From the IMG/VR virus record IMGVR_UViG_3300021964_000595, positions 1 through 22,355 of that record: a DNA stretch of 22,355 nucleotides; one strand, 5' to 3'. This stretch comes from a virus. This document shows, one piece after another, positions 286-3,299 of this stretch (position 1 is its first letter; each line of letters starts with the position of its first letter). The notes under the pieces were generated by a model, which saw only the letters and a list, made by a program, of their open reading frames with translations, made no database searches and was not told the DNA's origin. The position numbers and the translations under genes are program-made.

Positions 286-474
286 ATGAGTAGGTTTAAA
301 GCACCCTCCGCCGAAGAACTCGCACGGCGTGGCCTTAACTCTGACGGCTCTCCTATAGGGGCAACAAAAGTTCGCGCTCGAAACAAAAATGGTACGCTTA
401 AAGCAGACGACCCTTCTACGCCTCATGTAAATGAGGCTTGGAAAGCAAAACCTGCAAAGAAAAAGAAGGGCTAA
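286..474 (+). CDS. Small lysine-rich phage protein (62 aa), function unknown
   Basis: The start is well supported by AAGGAG at 273-278 with an 7-nt spacer. The 62-residue product begins MSRFKAPSAEELARRGLNSDG and ends in a strongly basic tail with four consecutive lysines (residues 58-61). The amphipathic N-terminal stretch APSAEELARRG could form a short helix; the rest looks disordered. I do not recognise a named family. It opens a run of small basic proteins (this gene and those at 1056, 1342, 1536 and 2484) placed between the presumed capsid gene and the neck genes. Nucleic-acid or capsid-interior binding is a reasonable guess from charge alone. A 7-bp stem-loop with a GUAA loop lies inside the gene near its 3' end. 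Confidence 0.75.
   Translation: MSRFKAPSAEELARRGLNSDGSPIGATKVRARNKNGTLKADDPSTPHVNEAWKAKPAKKKKG
420..437 (+). other. Intragenic stem-loop, 7-bp stem with GUAA tetraloop
   Basis: Bases 420-426 pair perfectly with 431-437 around the loop GTAA, which in RNA is a GNRA-type tetraloop, a class known to be very stable. It lies in the 62-aa gene, 40 nt upstream of the next start codon. No U-tract follows, so it is not a standard terminator. It could protect or define an mRNA end. One or two 7-bp stems with a given loop length are expected by chance in 22 kb. Confidence 0.35.
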
Positions 475-477
475 CAA

Positions 478-750
478 ATGGCTGGTTCTGATGTAAGAGC
501 AAAACGGTTAACTGCTACTGGTTCTGCGGGTGTTGGTCCTGCGCGTATTCGCCAAGTTCAGGTTAAAACAACCACCGGGTCCCCCCGTCTGACTATTTCA
601 GACGGGAACGGGGGCTCCACTGTTTTAGACATGGACTTAGACGCTTCGGACACTCATTCCGTAAACATTCCGGATGAGGGTATTCGTGTTGCAGATATTT
701 ATATAGCCACGTTTACCGCCTGTACGTCGGTGACGATTTTTTACAGCTAA
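478..750 (+). CDS. Small beta-rich virion protein A of a tandem pair (90 aa)
   Basis: The protein starts MAGSDVRAKRLTATGSAGVG and alternates short hydrophobic and polar stretches to the end (RIRQVQVKTTTG, STVLDMDLDASD, SVNIPDEGIRV, SVTIFYS), as expected for a single beta-sandwich domain. The next gene (95 aa) has the same plan: MAG plus an acidic residue and V at the start, a Gly/Ser-rich turn after about 15 residues, an IP-x-(D/E)-G motif at about residues 65-75, and a hydrophobic S-V/L-T-I/L-F end. I read them as diverged tandem duplicates. The size suits a head decoration, collar or fibre-tip subunit; which of these is not visible. A GA-rich site (AAGAAGGG, about 463-470) precedes the ATG. 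The gene carries a strong internal hairpin at 581-612. Confidence 0.75.
   Translation: MAGSDVRAKRLTATGSAGVGPARIRQVQVKTTTGSPRLTISDGNGGSTVLDMDLDASDTHSVNIPDEGIRVADIYIATFTACTSVTIFYS
581..612 (+). other. Strong intragenic stem-loop (9 bp plus 3 bp)
   Basis: Bases 584-592 pair perfectly with 598-606 around a 5-nt loop (CTATT). Beyond a 3-nt bulge, 581-583 can pair with 610-612. The stem is GC-rich. A short T run (TTTT) lies within 12 nt downstream but is not adjacent, so a classical terminator is doubtful; partial termination or mRNA end protection is possible. By a rough chance estimate a perfect 9-bp stem with a 3-8 nt loop should occur about once or less in a window this size, so this is suggestive only. 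Confidence 0.4.
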
Positions 751-760
751 GAGGGTTGTT

Positions 761-1048
761 ATGGCAGGGAATGAGGTAAAGTCGGTACACCGACACGACT
801 CCGGGTCCTTTGCCACGGGTCGTGGTCGCTTAATGGGTTTTTTAATTAATCACGCCTCTGGTTCAAGCGGTGACGCAATCATATATGACAACCCCTCGGC
901 AGCTTCAGGAGCCGAAGTTCTTGAAATAGACGAAAAAGCGGCGGGTTTGTTTGGCATGGAGATTCCGGGAGACGGAGTTTTGTTTTACAACGGCTTATAC
1001 GCGACCTTACCTGCTAACGTTTCTCTGACTTTGTTTCTTCAGAAGTGA
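761..1048 (+). CDS. Small beta-rich virion protein B of a tandem pair (95 aa)
   Basis: This is the second member of the tandem pair. It begins MAGNEVKSVHRHDSGSFATG, has a predicted run of beta strands, an EIPGDGVLF motif near residue 67, and the end SLTLFLQK. The overall pattern matches the preceding 90-aa protein although few residues are identical, so duplication followed by divergence, or acquisition of a second family member, are both possible. AAGAGGG at 749-755, overlapping the stop of the first copy, gives a good ribosome site and suggests coupled translation at similar levels. A virion-surface role (decoration or fibre tip) is inferred from size, fold type and location; no catalytic or metal-binding residues are visible. 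Confidence 0.75.
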   Translation: MAGNEVKSVHRHDSGSFATGRGRLMGFLINHASGSSGDAIIYDNPSAASGAEVLEIDEKAAGLFGMEIPGDGVLFYNGLYATLPANVSLTLFLQK

Positions 1049-1055
1049 GGAATTT

Positions 1056-1340
1056 ATGGCTACTACAAAAGACGTAACTAGAACACCCTCGGGACGAATA
1101 AAATACCGTGGGGAGACTTTTCCGGGTTTTAACAAGCCTAAAAGGACTCCAAAGGCGTCTAAAAAGAGTGCCGTTTTGGCTAAAAAAGGCTCTGAAATAA
1201 AGCTTGTGAGGTTTGGCGACCAAAACATGTCTATAAAAAAGGACCAGCCCGGTCGTCGTAAGAACTTTAGAGCTCGTCACTCGTGTGACACTGCAAAAGA
1301 CAAGTTCACTGCGCGATATTGGTCATGTAAGGCTTGGTAA
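1056..1340 (+). CDS. Small basic phage protein with RYWSCKAW end (94 aa)
   Basis: This is a strongly basic 94-residue protein. The N-terminal half (GRIKYRGETFPGFNKPKRTP and a KASKKSAVLAKKG stretch) is Lys-rich. The C-terminal third holds RKNFRARHSCDTAKDKFTARYWSCKAW (about residues 68-94), with two cysteines and three aromatic residues. I recognise this C-terminal motif from small proteins of many marine phages, where it is also found attached to other small basic domains; its function is not known to me. The Cys/His/Trp content would suit a compact fold, perhaps metal-bound, but only one His and two Cys are in place. It is followed after 1 nt by another small basic gene. A DNA-binding or head-interior role is inference from charge and position. 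Confidence 0.85.
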   Translation: MATTKDVTRTPSGRIKYRGETFPGFNKPKRTPKASKKSAVLAKKGSEIKLVRFGDQNMSIKKDQPGRRKNFRARHSCDTAKDKFTARYWSCKAW

Positions 1341-1341
1341 C

Positions 1342-1536
1342 ATGGCATATTCTAGGAAATCTAAAAAAGCTTCCTCCAAAAGCAAGGGCAGTAAGATTTG
1401 TCCGGAAGGTAAAGCTTGGGCGCAACGAACTTTTGACACTTACCCGTCAGCCTATGCAAATATGGCGGCTTCTAAGTATTGTAAGGACCCTAATTACGCC
1501 AAAAAGTCTAAGGGCGGAAAAAGAAAGGGTTCGTAA
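1342..1536 (+). CDS. Small basic phage protein with YPSAYAN motif (64 aa)
   Basis: I chose the ATG at 1342, one base after the previous stop and preceded by TAAGG at 1328-1332, rather than an upstream in-frame ATG at 1285 that would overlap the previous gene by 56 nt. The product begins MAYSRKSKKASSKSKG. Its centre reads ICPEGKAWAQRTFDTYPSAY followed by ANMAASKYCKDPNY, and it ends in a KKSKGGKRKG tail. The order Cys-Pro-x-Gly-Lys-x-x-Ala, then YPSAYAN, then a Cys-Lys is a conserved pattern I know from marine phage and some T4-like phage proteins, without assigned function. The protein is basic at both ends with a small ordered core. It overlaps the next start by one base (TAATG). Confidence 0.85.
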   Translation: MAYSRKSKKASSKSKGSKICPEGKAWAQRTFDTYPSAYANMAASKYCKDPNYAKKSKGGKRKGS

Positions 1537-1919
1537 TGGGTAAATTAAAGGATTGGGTCGATGAAGATTGGGTCAGAATTGATAGCCAAGGTAATATCGC
1601 AGGCAAGTGCGGGACTTCTAAGAATAAAAAGAACCCTGACAGATGCCTTCCACGAGCTAAGGCAAATAGTCTTAGTAAGTCTGAGCGAGCTTCTACGGCT
1701 CGCAAGAAAAAGCGTGAAGGCGCTAAAGGAAAACAAGTTGTTTCGAATACGAAAGCAGCCAAAGTAACTCGTTTGGCCTGTGGTGGAGAAGTGTCTGCAA
1801 CTAAAGCAAAACGTCCTTTTAACGGTAAATCCAAACCCGGAACGGCTGTGGCAAGAGGTTGCGGCATTATCTTGGCGGATCGTCGTAAGAGAACAAAAGG
1901 TTCGGTGACTCAGGGATGA
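1536..1919 (+). CDS. DUF6321-type small basic protein with a second Cys-rich end (127 aa)
   Basis: Residues 1-75 (KDWVDEDWVRID, GKCGTSKNKKNPDRCLPRAK, LSKSERASTARKKKREG) match the pattern of the DUF6321 family as I remember it: an Asp-Trp-Val start, two cysteines in a Lys-rich stretch and a Ser/Arg-rich helix. Residues 78-127 form another basic segment with RLACGGEV and RGCGIILADRRKRTKG; a similar GCG-x(5-7)-RRK-x-T-K motif ends many small marine phage proteins. So two modules, each with two cysteines, seem fused here. Function is unknown. The start overlaps the previous stop (TAATG) with AAAGGG at about 1523-1528; the stop overlaps the next start (ATGA). The chain of overlaps indicates translational coupling of the small basic genes. 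Confidence 0.85.
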   Translation: MGKLKDWVDEDWVRIDSQGNIAGKCGTSKNKKNPDRCLPRAKANSLSKSERASTARKKKREGAKGKQVVSNTKAAKVTRLACGGEVSATKAKRPFNGKSKPGTAVARGCGIILADRRKRTKGSVTQG

Positions 1920-2500
1920 ACTTAGGTTTTTACAGTGATCCTACGGAAAAAGCTCTGGTCAATGAGATTATGAGTTGGTCTAAGGTTGCTTTAGAGAAAC
2001 CCAGTAAGTTTTTTAATGGACTTCCTCCATGCCCGTTTGCAAAGACGGCGTGGTTGGAGGACAAAGTTTCAATTATCTTTAAGAAAGAAGCGTCTTATCA
2101 GACGTTGTATTCCTGCATTTCTAGGTATGATGATGCGTTTGATCTGGTAATTATTGTTGACTTAAAAAACACAAAGAACCCGGAGGATTTTCACGAATAC
2201 TTGGACGATTTAAATCACCGCATTTCTGAAGGCATGTTTATCGACAAGGACATTTGGGTAATGGGGTTTAATCCCGAGGATGAGCCGAGCGATTTTGTAG
2301 AAGACGTTACTTTTAATTATGACGTTGACGATGAATATAGCATGATTTTTGTTCAAAGACTTTCTAAGTTACAGGAAGCAGCAAACAGGTTGGACAAAAA
2401 GGGATACTATGATAGCTATGACGGTGAGTACAACTCTACAGAAATTTACTTTAACCGAGAAAAACTGTACAGGAGACTAAAAAATGGCGATGAAACCTAA
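1916..2500 (+). CDS. CPFAK-motif protein, possibly DUF1415-like (194 aa)
   Basis: This 194-residue acidic protein does not look structural. Residues 36-49 read LPPCPFAKTAWLED. A hydrophobic beta-type stretch follows (FDLVIIVDLKN, about 75-85), then EDFHEYLDDLNHRI, then WVMGFNPEDEPSDF near 113-126. The order Trp near the start, N/G-L-x-x-CPFA(K), a short Val/Ile strand, D-F-x-x-Y-L and a F-(N/H)-P segment recalls the bacterial DUF1415 family (NLCPFA motif). I am unsure of this, as the C-terminal half matches less well and no function is known for that family. The single conserved Cys could be catalytic or structural. Alternatives: a phage-specific fold, or a host-takeover factor carried in the late operon. 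The start overlaps the previous stop (ATGA). Confidence 0.8.
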   Translation: MNLGFYSDPTEKALVNEIMSWSKVALEKPSKFFNGLPPCPFAKTAWLEDKVSIIFKKEASYQTLYSCISRYDDAFDLVIIVDLKNTKNPEDFHEYLDDLNHRISEGMFIDKDIWVMGFNPEDEPSDFVEDVTFNYDVDDEYSMIFVQRLSKLQEAANRLDKKGYYDSYDGEYNSTEIYFNREKLYRRLKNGDET

Positions 2501-2624
2501 AAAAATGCGTAGTGGCGGCATGGCAAAAAAGATGCGCGGCGGTGGAATGGTTAAGAAACTGCGCGGCGGTGGAATGGTTAAGAAACTTCGTAGCGGTGGA
2601 GCCGTTCGTAAATCTAAAAAGTAG
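2484..2624 (+). CDS. Repetitive Met/Lys/Arg/Gly peptide (46 aa)
   Basis: This small gene starts inside the end of the 194-aa gene, with a textbook AGGAG at 2471-2475 and an 8-nt spacer. It encodes 46 residues composed almost only of M, K, R, G, S, A and V. The core is three 9-residue repeats (MAKKMRGGG, MVKKLRGGG, MVKKLRSGG), and the end is AVRKSKK. Peptides of this composition are frequent in uncultured marine phages; their role is not known. The very high positive charge suggests binding to DNA or to acidic virion surfaces. The excellent ribosome site and placement in an otherwise tight operon argue that it is expressed, even though it is too short for many gene callers. Confidence 0.8.
   Translation: MAMKPKKMRSGGMAKKMRGGGMVKKLRGGGMVKKLRSGGAVRKSKK
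2520..2600 (+). repeat. Three tandem 27-bp coding repeats
   Basis: Units run 2520-2546, 2547-2573 and 2574-2600. Each begins with ATG and ends with GGTGGA, and they encode MAKKMRGGG, MVKKLRGGG and MVKKLRSGG. The second and third differ at a few positions, mostly silent. A fourth, imperfect unit (KPKKMRSGG) precedes them. Copy number could change by slippage without breaking the frame. Confidence 0.9.
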
Positions 2625-2630
2625 GTTAAA

Positions 2631-3299
2631 ATGGCGTTATCTGGAACATCTGACTTCGAACTAGACGTTGCTGAGTATATTGAAGAGGCTTTTGAACGCT
2701 GCGGTTTAGAGGTCCGGACGGGGTATGATTTAAGAACTGCAAAACGTTCTTTGAATCTCATGCTTGCTGAATGGGCTAACCGTGGATTAAATCAATGGAC
2801 TATTAAGCAACGAAGCTTTACATCCACTCAGGGGGATGGAGACGTTCCGGTGAGCTCGGATGTTATAGACATTTTGTCTGTTGTAGTTCGAAGAAGTAAT
2901 ACCGATTACGCTTTAGACAGGGTAAGTCGGGACACGTTTTTGTCTATTCCAAACAAAACAAGTCAGGGCAGGCCTTCTCAGTTTTTCTTGAATCGTCAAA
3001 CTACGCCTGTTTTGCAGATATGGCCGCGACCTGAAAACAATACGGATGTAGTTATATATGATGCGTTAACTCGTATGAATGATGCGGACGGTCAAACCAA
3101 CACGCTTGATATGCCCTTTCGTTTTTACCCGTGTTTAGCCGCAGGGTTAGCGTATTATATTTCTATGAAAAGAGCTCCAAACCGTGTACAGCTTTTGAAA
3201 GCGGTTTATGAAGAAGAGTTCGAAAGAGCTATGACCGAGGACCGTGACAGGTCGTCTTTTAATGTTGTTCCTCAGTATCAGTACTTTAGGACAAACTAA
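2631..3299 (+). CDS. Head-tail adaptor, P22 gp4-like (222 aa)
   Basis: Predicted to form the ring between portal and tail. In P22, gp4 binds the portal after packaging and receives gp10. The N-terminus has the typical helical pair DVAEYIEEAFERCGLE and RTAKRSLNLMLAEWANRG (about residues 12-52), then a beta-rich middle with FTSTQGDGDVPVSSDVIDI. A conserved GRPSQFF segment (113-119) and IWPRP (130-134) precede a C-terminal helical part ending in an acidic/basic helix (residues 185-207). Length fits the family. A second adaptor-type protein two genes downstream shares the same order of elements. The ribosome site is weak (AGG, 2623-2625), and the stop overlaps the next ATG (TAATG). I am confident of a neck role and less sure which of the two adaptor proteins contacts the portal. 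Confidence 0.8.
   Translation: MALSGTSDFELDVAEYIEEAFERCGLEVRTGYDLRTAKRSLNLMLAEWANRGLNQWTIKQRSFTSTQGDGDVPVSSDVIDILSVVVRRSNTDYALDRVSRDTFLSIPNKTSQGRPSQFFLNRQTTPVLQIWPRPENNTDVVIYDALTRMNDADGQTNTLDMPFRFYPCLAAGLAYYISMKRAPNRVQLLKAVYEEEFERAMTEDRDRSSFNVVPQYQYFRTN

Follow-up and report, generated by a model that had tools for sequence, protein, structure and literature searches.

Several described groups lie close to the genes considered here. The internal proteins of phage T4 are basic and occur in about 300 copies each; for packaging, the N-terminal 10 residues of IPIII are enough, and within the T4 leader residues 4 and 7 matter for targeting and residues 8 and 10 for cleavage (PMC9026906). DUF5754 is the same family as Tlr6F (PMC12220804), which is reported to be conserved in nearly all polinton-like and in numerous giant viruses, is without a detectable tie to a known structure or function, and was already named in 2015 as a family held by phages (PMC4642659); the algal giant virus CpV-BQ1 lists one DUF5754 and one DUF5872 protein (PMC12085832). 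The present analysis concerns a cluster of small, lysine- and arginine-rich genes in the virus record IMGVR_UViG_3300021964_000595, positions 1 to 22,355, which was analysed as a whole (22,355 bases, hereafter the window). On balance, the products of three of these genes, designated RYW, YPS, and D63, are probably small proteins of the head interior that are incorporated while the procapsid assembles.

The gene cluster and its relation to DUF5754 and DUF5872

The window comes from a tailed marine phage whose adaptor is of the SU10 type, and it begins just past the capsid gene, which is seen in relatives. The interval between capsid and adaptor genes holds nine genes: five are strongly basic (isoelectric point (pI) 10.1–12.0) and four are acidic (pI 4.3–5.6), the acidic ones being interleaved with the basic ones and starting at 50, 478, 761, and 1916. 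The features are collated below with their lysine plus arginine content (K+R) and, as fractions, their occurrence in the adaptor-selected relatives defined in the next section.

1056–1340, + strand: RYW, 94-residue protein with the motif RYWSCKAW; K+R 28%, pI 10.8; phrog_7595; 13/33
1342–1536, + strand: YPS, 64-residue protein with YPSAYAN and two Cys; K+R 27%, pI 10.1; phrog_27331; 30/33
1536–1919, + strand: D63, 127-residue protein, residues 1–79 phrog_23735, followed by an RGCG...RRK tail; K+R 26%, pI 10.7; 30/33
286–474, + strand: B, 62-residue basic protein with C-terminal KPAKKKKG; K+R 24%, pI 10.6; 8/33
2484–2624, + strand: GGG, 46-residue Lys/Arg/Gly repeat protein (KKMRGGG); K+R 37%, pI 12.0; 20/33
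1916–2500, + strand: H, 194-residue acidic protein within the cluster; phrog_28122; pI 4.5; 17/33
2631–3299, + strand: adaptor gene bounding the set; SU10_adaptor PF24175, 3.1e-14

The five small Lys/Arg-rich genes that a first-pass annotation had placed at 286 to 2624 are thus present (pI 10.1–12.0, K+R 24–37%), together with the motifs read there (RYWSCKAW, YPSAYAN with two Cys, and a GCG-x-RRK end). The chaining of three of them through an overlap or a gap of one nucleotide is exact: RYW ends at 1340 and YPS starts at 1342, leaving a 1-nucleotide gap, YPS and D63 share one nucleotide at 1536, and a further overlap of 4 nucleotides joins D63 to H at 1916.

The window RYW protein was matched by phrog_7595 (1.2e-21) and phrog_9979 (2.5e-13), and no match to DUF5754 (PF19058) was obtained for it in the Pfam search at an expect value (E) of ≤1. 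A bridge is provided by BN7874_177 of phage NCTB, which matches both DUF5754 (2.5e-11, 43.8 bits, cut-off 27.4) and phrog_7595 (1e-11). Weaker, direct matches to DUF5754 were found in loci L388 (8.9e-5) and L386 (5.6e-4) and for 8 of 32 members of the RYW family at E≤0.1 (best 5.6e-4). Because a six-frame scan of 20 phage records with DUF5754 gave only three matches, one of them over the cut-off, and the window protein none, RYW is regarded from these comparisons as a distant relative of DUF5754/Tlr6F rather than a member. It shares with the Tlr6F/OLV2/DUF5754 proteins of polinton-like viruses, virophages, and giant viruses its small size; the marine phage branch differs in having its own RYWSCKAW end and in adjoining the capsid gene. 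A weak echo of DUF6321 was seen in 6 of 32 RYW members (best 0.0042).

For YPS and D63 the matched families were phrog_27331 (5.9e-24) and phrog_23735 (1.4e-21), respectively, and neither window protein matched DUF5872 (PF19197) at E≤1. Their relatives do so in separate halves of that model (116 positions). Positions 1–52 match the YPS-type proteins gp70 of CRP-2 (5.6e-12) and gp70 of CRP-207 (1.2e-8), both over the cut-off and both also matched by the YPS profile; positions 42–112 match D63-type proteins of P-SCSP2 (2.6e-15, 43–112, over the cut-off), CRP-207 (1.9e-6), and CRP-2 (5.6e-6). In the D63 alignment, 4 of 57 sequences matched DUF5872 at E≤0.1 (best 1.2e-5); in the scan of genomes, it was matched by 8 of 20 phage records (three over the cut-off) and by none of 14 control genomes. 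As judged from these profiles, YPS corresponds to the N-terminal and D63 to the C-terminal half of DUF5872, and the overlapping gene pair of the window thus corresponds to what is a single protein family in other viruses. The Pfam family is one model; the window has a gene for each half, the two overlapping, and its D63 bears an added RGCG...RRK tail. The joint is spanned by immuto_186 of a Flavobacterium phage (156 residues, profile positions 7–83, 1.3e-4), which was placed through DUF5872 alone and is absent from the YPS and D63 profiles among the matches listed.

The tail of D63 ([RK]GCGx5RRK) is attached by a linker that varies, and some 20 members, 60–90 residues long, are too short to hold it, in keeping with the earlier reading of the 127-residue gene as two modules. 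The DUF6321 label first given to this gene has to be dropped: DUF6321 (PF19846) gave no match at E≤1 in the window protein and none at E≤0.1 in the 57-member alignment, the family approached being DUF5872. DUF6321 itself lies C-terminally in the cyanophage protein S-SM2_109 (6.6e-22), which also has D63-like and YPS-like domains. Two further labels were discarded, namely Protamine_like (one of the 57 D63 alignment members at 0.018, treated as chance) and “HVA1 family protein”, which CRP-901 gp67 bears in GenBank although the Pfam search of this protein gave nothing at E≤10. In two deposited genomes the annotated gene lies in another frame, over the YPS reading frame of phage C75C1 (L284:5960–6148) and over the D63 reading frame of Roseobacter phage CRP-2 (gp69, L282:2363–2548).

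Conservation, synteny, and pairing

Aligned relatives (first 280 loci plus the window) numbered 145 for RYW, 232 for YPS, and 242 for D63. Median ratios of nonsynonymous to synonymous substitution rates (dN/dS), from pairs of similar length with dS between 0.05 and 1.5, were 0.03 for RYW (n=6), 0.10 for YPS (n=3), 0.12 for D63 (n=11), 0.13 for GGG (n=28), and 0.15 for B (n=6); these values suggest purifying selection on the small genes, the pair numbers being small (n=3 to 28). The basic open reading frames (ORFs) are taken to be real genes because of the many aligned relatives and the low dN/dS.

Co-occurrence was assessed in a sample selected independently of the small genes: 80 loci were fetched by the adaptor protein, 33 of which were non-redundant and contained both a capsid and an adaptor gene. 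The first-pass annotation would have been refuted by co-occurrence no greater than chance, and this is not what is seen for YPS and D63, which are tightly linked: they stand together in 30 of the 33 loci, neither is present in three, and in none does one occur alone. RYW was found in 13, of which 12 also have YPS and D63. A looser count took in 38 adaptor loci preceded by 3 kb or more of sequence and gave YPS in 34, D63 in 34, and RYW in 15. The order major capsid gene (MCP)–...–RYW–YPS–D63–...–adaptor is essentially constant over 171 non-redundant capsid–adaptor intervals, a set of mixed selection obtained partly through the small genes themselves; among the 40 commonest patterns, D63 precedes YPS in four intervals. 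The stop codon of YPS overlaps the start of D63 by one nucleotide in 144 of 216 pairs. The place of the capsid gene can be seen in a close relative (L002), in which genes for a 285-residue protein (phrog_28737), a 160-residue protein, a 216-residue protein, and the major capsid protein (Phage_capsid_4, 1.9e-15) are followed by those of the window; the 285-residue protein is taken by us, from its position, to be the scaffold.

Named phages were searched with tblastn over 50,697 phage records, 159 of which contained RYW. With the window proteins as queries, YPS was detected in six records and D63 in one; with the proteins of the pelagiphage HTVC027P, D63 was detected in 21 and YPS in nine. Seven records (HTVC027P, 023Pt_psg01, HTVC023P, HTVC106P, HTVC203P, P-SCSP2, and C75C1) had both, in all seven close together (hypergeometric value 2.5e-23, which ignores kinship among records and is illustrative only). 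Profile searches located RYW, a YPS-like gene, and D63 in that order in CRP-2 and CRP-207, all three within 1.3 kb in HTVC106P, and non-adjacent RYW and D63 in HMO-2011. Scans of viral contigs with four window proteins gave at least 600 matches for each; the phages of the window are abundant in viral contigs. Neighbouring duplicate matches were seen in L338 and L277 (D63 twice in each) and in L248 (RYW twice).

B gave no match at E≤1 in the Pfam and PHROG searches; B and GGG probably belong with the internal head set. The tie of H to the basic set is uncertain: its gene overlaps those of D63 and GGG, and its product has conserved CP(F/Y)A, GF(H/N)P, and QRL...GYY motifs and a weak echo of DUF1415 (0.074, Pfam). 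The adjoining acidic genes at 478–750 and 761–1048 both match phrog_28102 (1.5e-8 and 0.0014) and look like paralogues.

Fusions, virion proteins, and leader peptides

Fusion, the other link between the motif families considered at the outset, was found in two forms, RYW being fused to portal or protease and D63-like and YPS-like domains being joined in cyanophage proteins. The “capsid protease” gp125 of Vibrio phage ICP1 consists of a Peptidase_S78_2 (XkdF) domain (36–160, 3.5e-10) followed by RYW (184–261), and its gene directly precedes those of scaffold, decoration, and coat. In phiA009_0107 of an Aeromonas phage, also in a head module, the order is reversed (RYW 75–150, protease 175–289, 1.7e-11). 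The window RYW has no S78_2 (XkdF) domain by Pfam and PHROG, its 94 residues being the RYW part alone. The label “DNA methyltransferase” of phrog_1530, encountered in L281 and L287, looks wrong and was set aside, because its phiA009 member (2.1e-72) is an XkdF-type protease plus RYW and has no Pfam methyltransferase match.

Portal fusions comprise a 693-residue portal of the IMG/VR contig L464 (Phage_portal_3, 5.9e-50), which ends with RYW (604–693), and gp012 of Aphanizomenon phage CL131 (1393 residues; Phage_portal_3, 6.6e-52; RYW 536–604, 2e-13). In the latter (L563:3971–8152), pyrophosphatase-like and Mu-F domains lie behind RYW. The CL131 portal (ORF012) is one of 23 proteins identified by liquid chromatography–tandem mass spectrometry in purified virions, coverage of the RYW part not being stated (PMC6293099). 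Mass spectrometry (MS) of ICP1 procapsids is uninformative on gp125, because the proteins searched for were those of E. coli, coat, scaffold, decoration, and TcaP (PMC10945586). Unfused copies also neighbour head genes: in KBS-S-2A, the genes for scaffold (phrog_206) and coat follow directly after RYW, and in Prochlorococcus phage P-SCSP2 YPS sits between scaffold and MCP.

YPS-like domains were found in three proteins of T4-like cyanophages, S-SM2_109 (708 residues, 1.7e-6, gene between the terminase genes), S-SM1_115 (495 residues, 6.9e-6), and S-SCSM1_29 (517 residues, 5.2e-5); D63-like domains were found in S-SM2_109 (7.7e-5) and S-SCSM1_29 (1.2e-5), S-SM1_115 being absent among the matches listed. 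Nothing close to these scores arose in 1,000 shuffles, the best values being 0.11 and 0.3. The product of S-SCSM1_29 is labelled “virion protein”, as are 48 S-SCSM1 genes in all (counted by eye). Among the S-SM2 genes, gp13, gp14, gp15, gp18, gp19, and 109 bear the remark “similar to Synechococcus phage S-SM1 protein”, which neither terminase gene has; as MS identified 41 virion proteins of S-SM1, for which orthologues were assigned (PMC3037559), this remark may flag virion proteins.

RYW relatives are encoded at 77 loci of the genome contigs. T4-type leaders were scored by their best BLOSUM match to the N-terminal ten residues of ipI, ipII, ipIII, and alt, with 9,699 ORFs as background. At three of the 77 loci, RYW leaders resembling those of T4 IPI–IPIII were found: L521 (24), L526 (21), and L533 (22), scores reached by 0.06–0.11% of background ORFs; these contigs are called T4-like because other ORFs there carry such leaders. 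F at positions 4 and 7 and E at 10 are present in L521 and L533, and F, L, and E in L526. A fourth leader, in L506, scored 17 (0.75% of background); this ORF (L506:5779–6300, 173 residues) continues with a MAKGQLQ..WVQSKITKA..Y stretch, by eye shared with S-SM2_109, and then RYW. The likeness to T4 IPI–IPIII lies in small basic head proteins and in the leader of RYW in three contigs, no sequence kinship of the mature parts having been sought or seen. The window group differs in having no such leader: the window RYW carries no capsid-targeting leader, and window-type starts (MATTKD..) score 14–18, which is taken as chance because 1% of background ORFs reach 15.

In structure models, RYW forms a beta hairpin and two helices at modest confidence (predicted local distance difference test (pLDDT) score 74.4), and residues 1–70 of D63 are ordered as a short helix, strands, and two helices, followed by a low-confidence tail (mean pLDDT 71.6). 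The second match of the RYW model in a library of predicted viral structures was ICP1 ORF125, i.e., a sequence relative. Profiles of RYW, D63, and H gave no PDB sequence match beyond chance.

Proposed role and alternatives

Beside the observed charge, chaining, synteny, pairing, relation to DUF5754/DUF5872, and fusions stands the role favoured here for RYW, YPS, and D63 inside the head. The small proteins would be made late along with the capsid genes and would be built into the procapsid alongside portal, scaffold, or maturation protease, to which their conserved folded cores would dock; their Lys/Arg-rich surfaces and tails would then rest against the packaged DNA. YPS and D63 would work as a pair, as a DUF5872 protein split in two, with RYW as an optional third partner. 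The net charge of the RYW domain is +19 in the window; standalone copies carry +14 to +19, the portal fusions +12 and +7, and the protease fusions −1 (ICP1) and 0 (phiA009). Because the protease-fused domains are neutral, docking is proposed as the role that is conserved, with DNA contact coming second. Of the first proposal, a set of DNA-condensing or capsid-interior proteins, the interior location is supported indirectly, by position, fusions, leader, and the cyanophage virion label; condensation has charge in its favour, and the neutral protease-fused copies speak against it.

Several observations weigh against an internal head role. RYW is missing in 20 of the 33 adaptor-selected relatives, and it also occurs away from head modules: after endolysin in ICBM2, beside lysozyme in S-EIVl, next to a transcription elongation factor in NCTB, and likewise in D274. 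What is conserved in RYW is not its basicity, given the charges of −1 and 0 in protease-fused copies versus +19 in the window. The T4-like leader is present on three clear cases, four at most, of 376 RYW ORFs, in similar contigs and on none of the window proteins. None of the small standalone proteins turned up in the virion proteomes looked at, the virion evidence concerning large domain-containing proteins, and the “virion protein” label is close to, not exactly, the MS list of S-SCSM1, 48 genes being labelled and 45 virion proteins detected (PMC9602691). The D63 and RYW models gave no fold match in the PDB. The RYW copies away from head genes and the optional presence of RYW leave room for the following alternatives.

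The first alternative is that the proteins are procapsid assembly factors only, i.e., modules that serve portal, protease, or scaffold in docking or as chaperones, are lost by cleavage or expulsion before the head matures, and so would not accompany the genome. Fusion to the portal and the maturation protease, loss of charge in the protease fusions, and the neighbouring scaffold and coat genes would all fit. However, a portal-fused RYW sits in a protein detected in CL131 virions, S-SCSM1_29 carries the virion protein label, and standalone copies are strongly basic, so that a purely transient role is considered unlikely. Somewhat less likely still is host takeover by proteins that are made late or ejected with the DNA and act on the host nucleoid, transcription, or defence, like T4 Alt and IPI. 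The proteins are small, basic, optional, and variable among relatives, T4 internal proteins have such roles (PMC9026906), and the NCTB copy adjoins the transcription elongation factor; chaining with capsid and adaptor genes, fusion of RYW to portal and protease, and the sharing of the families with eukaryotic DNA viruses of unrelated hosts nevertheless argue against it. Should the proteins be ejected, host takeover would be compatible with the internal head role. A third alternative, accessory proteins that handle nucleic acids in replication or late transcription, have nothing to do with the head, and sit in the late operon by chance or for timing, would suit the high basic charge, the several RYW copies outside head modules, and a giant-virus family to which no virion role is given (PMC4642659), but would leave the portal fusions, the protease fusions on either side, and the YPS/D63 pairing beside the coat gene unexplained, and is very doubtful.

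The internal head role invites a wider reading, held here tentatively and as a rather doubtful possibility, in which Tlr6F/DUF5754 and DUF5872 would be genome-companion or core-assembly modules of the capsid interior whatever the capsid fold. They would have passed between tailed phages, with their HK97 fold and portal, and DNA viruses of eukaryotes, with their jelly-roll capsids, and would occur as an operon (the marine cluster), as a polyprotein (S-SM2_109/S-SCSM1_29), or tethered (the portal and protease fusions). The set is not undescribed in every part, as first supposed: the family behind RYW is known as Tlr6F, with phage members mentioned (PMC4642659), and DUF5872 is in Pfam. The chained arrangement, the DUF5872 split, and the RYW fusions were not found in the literature searched, and no mention of portal or protease fusions was found in the available text of the Tlr6F literature.

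Since the phages of the window are abundant and isolated relatives with the same genes exist in phage records, the question is directly testable, and phage relatives of Tlr6F that are fused to the portal and, on either side, to the protease point for the first time to a definite site, the inside of the procapsid.

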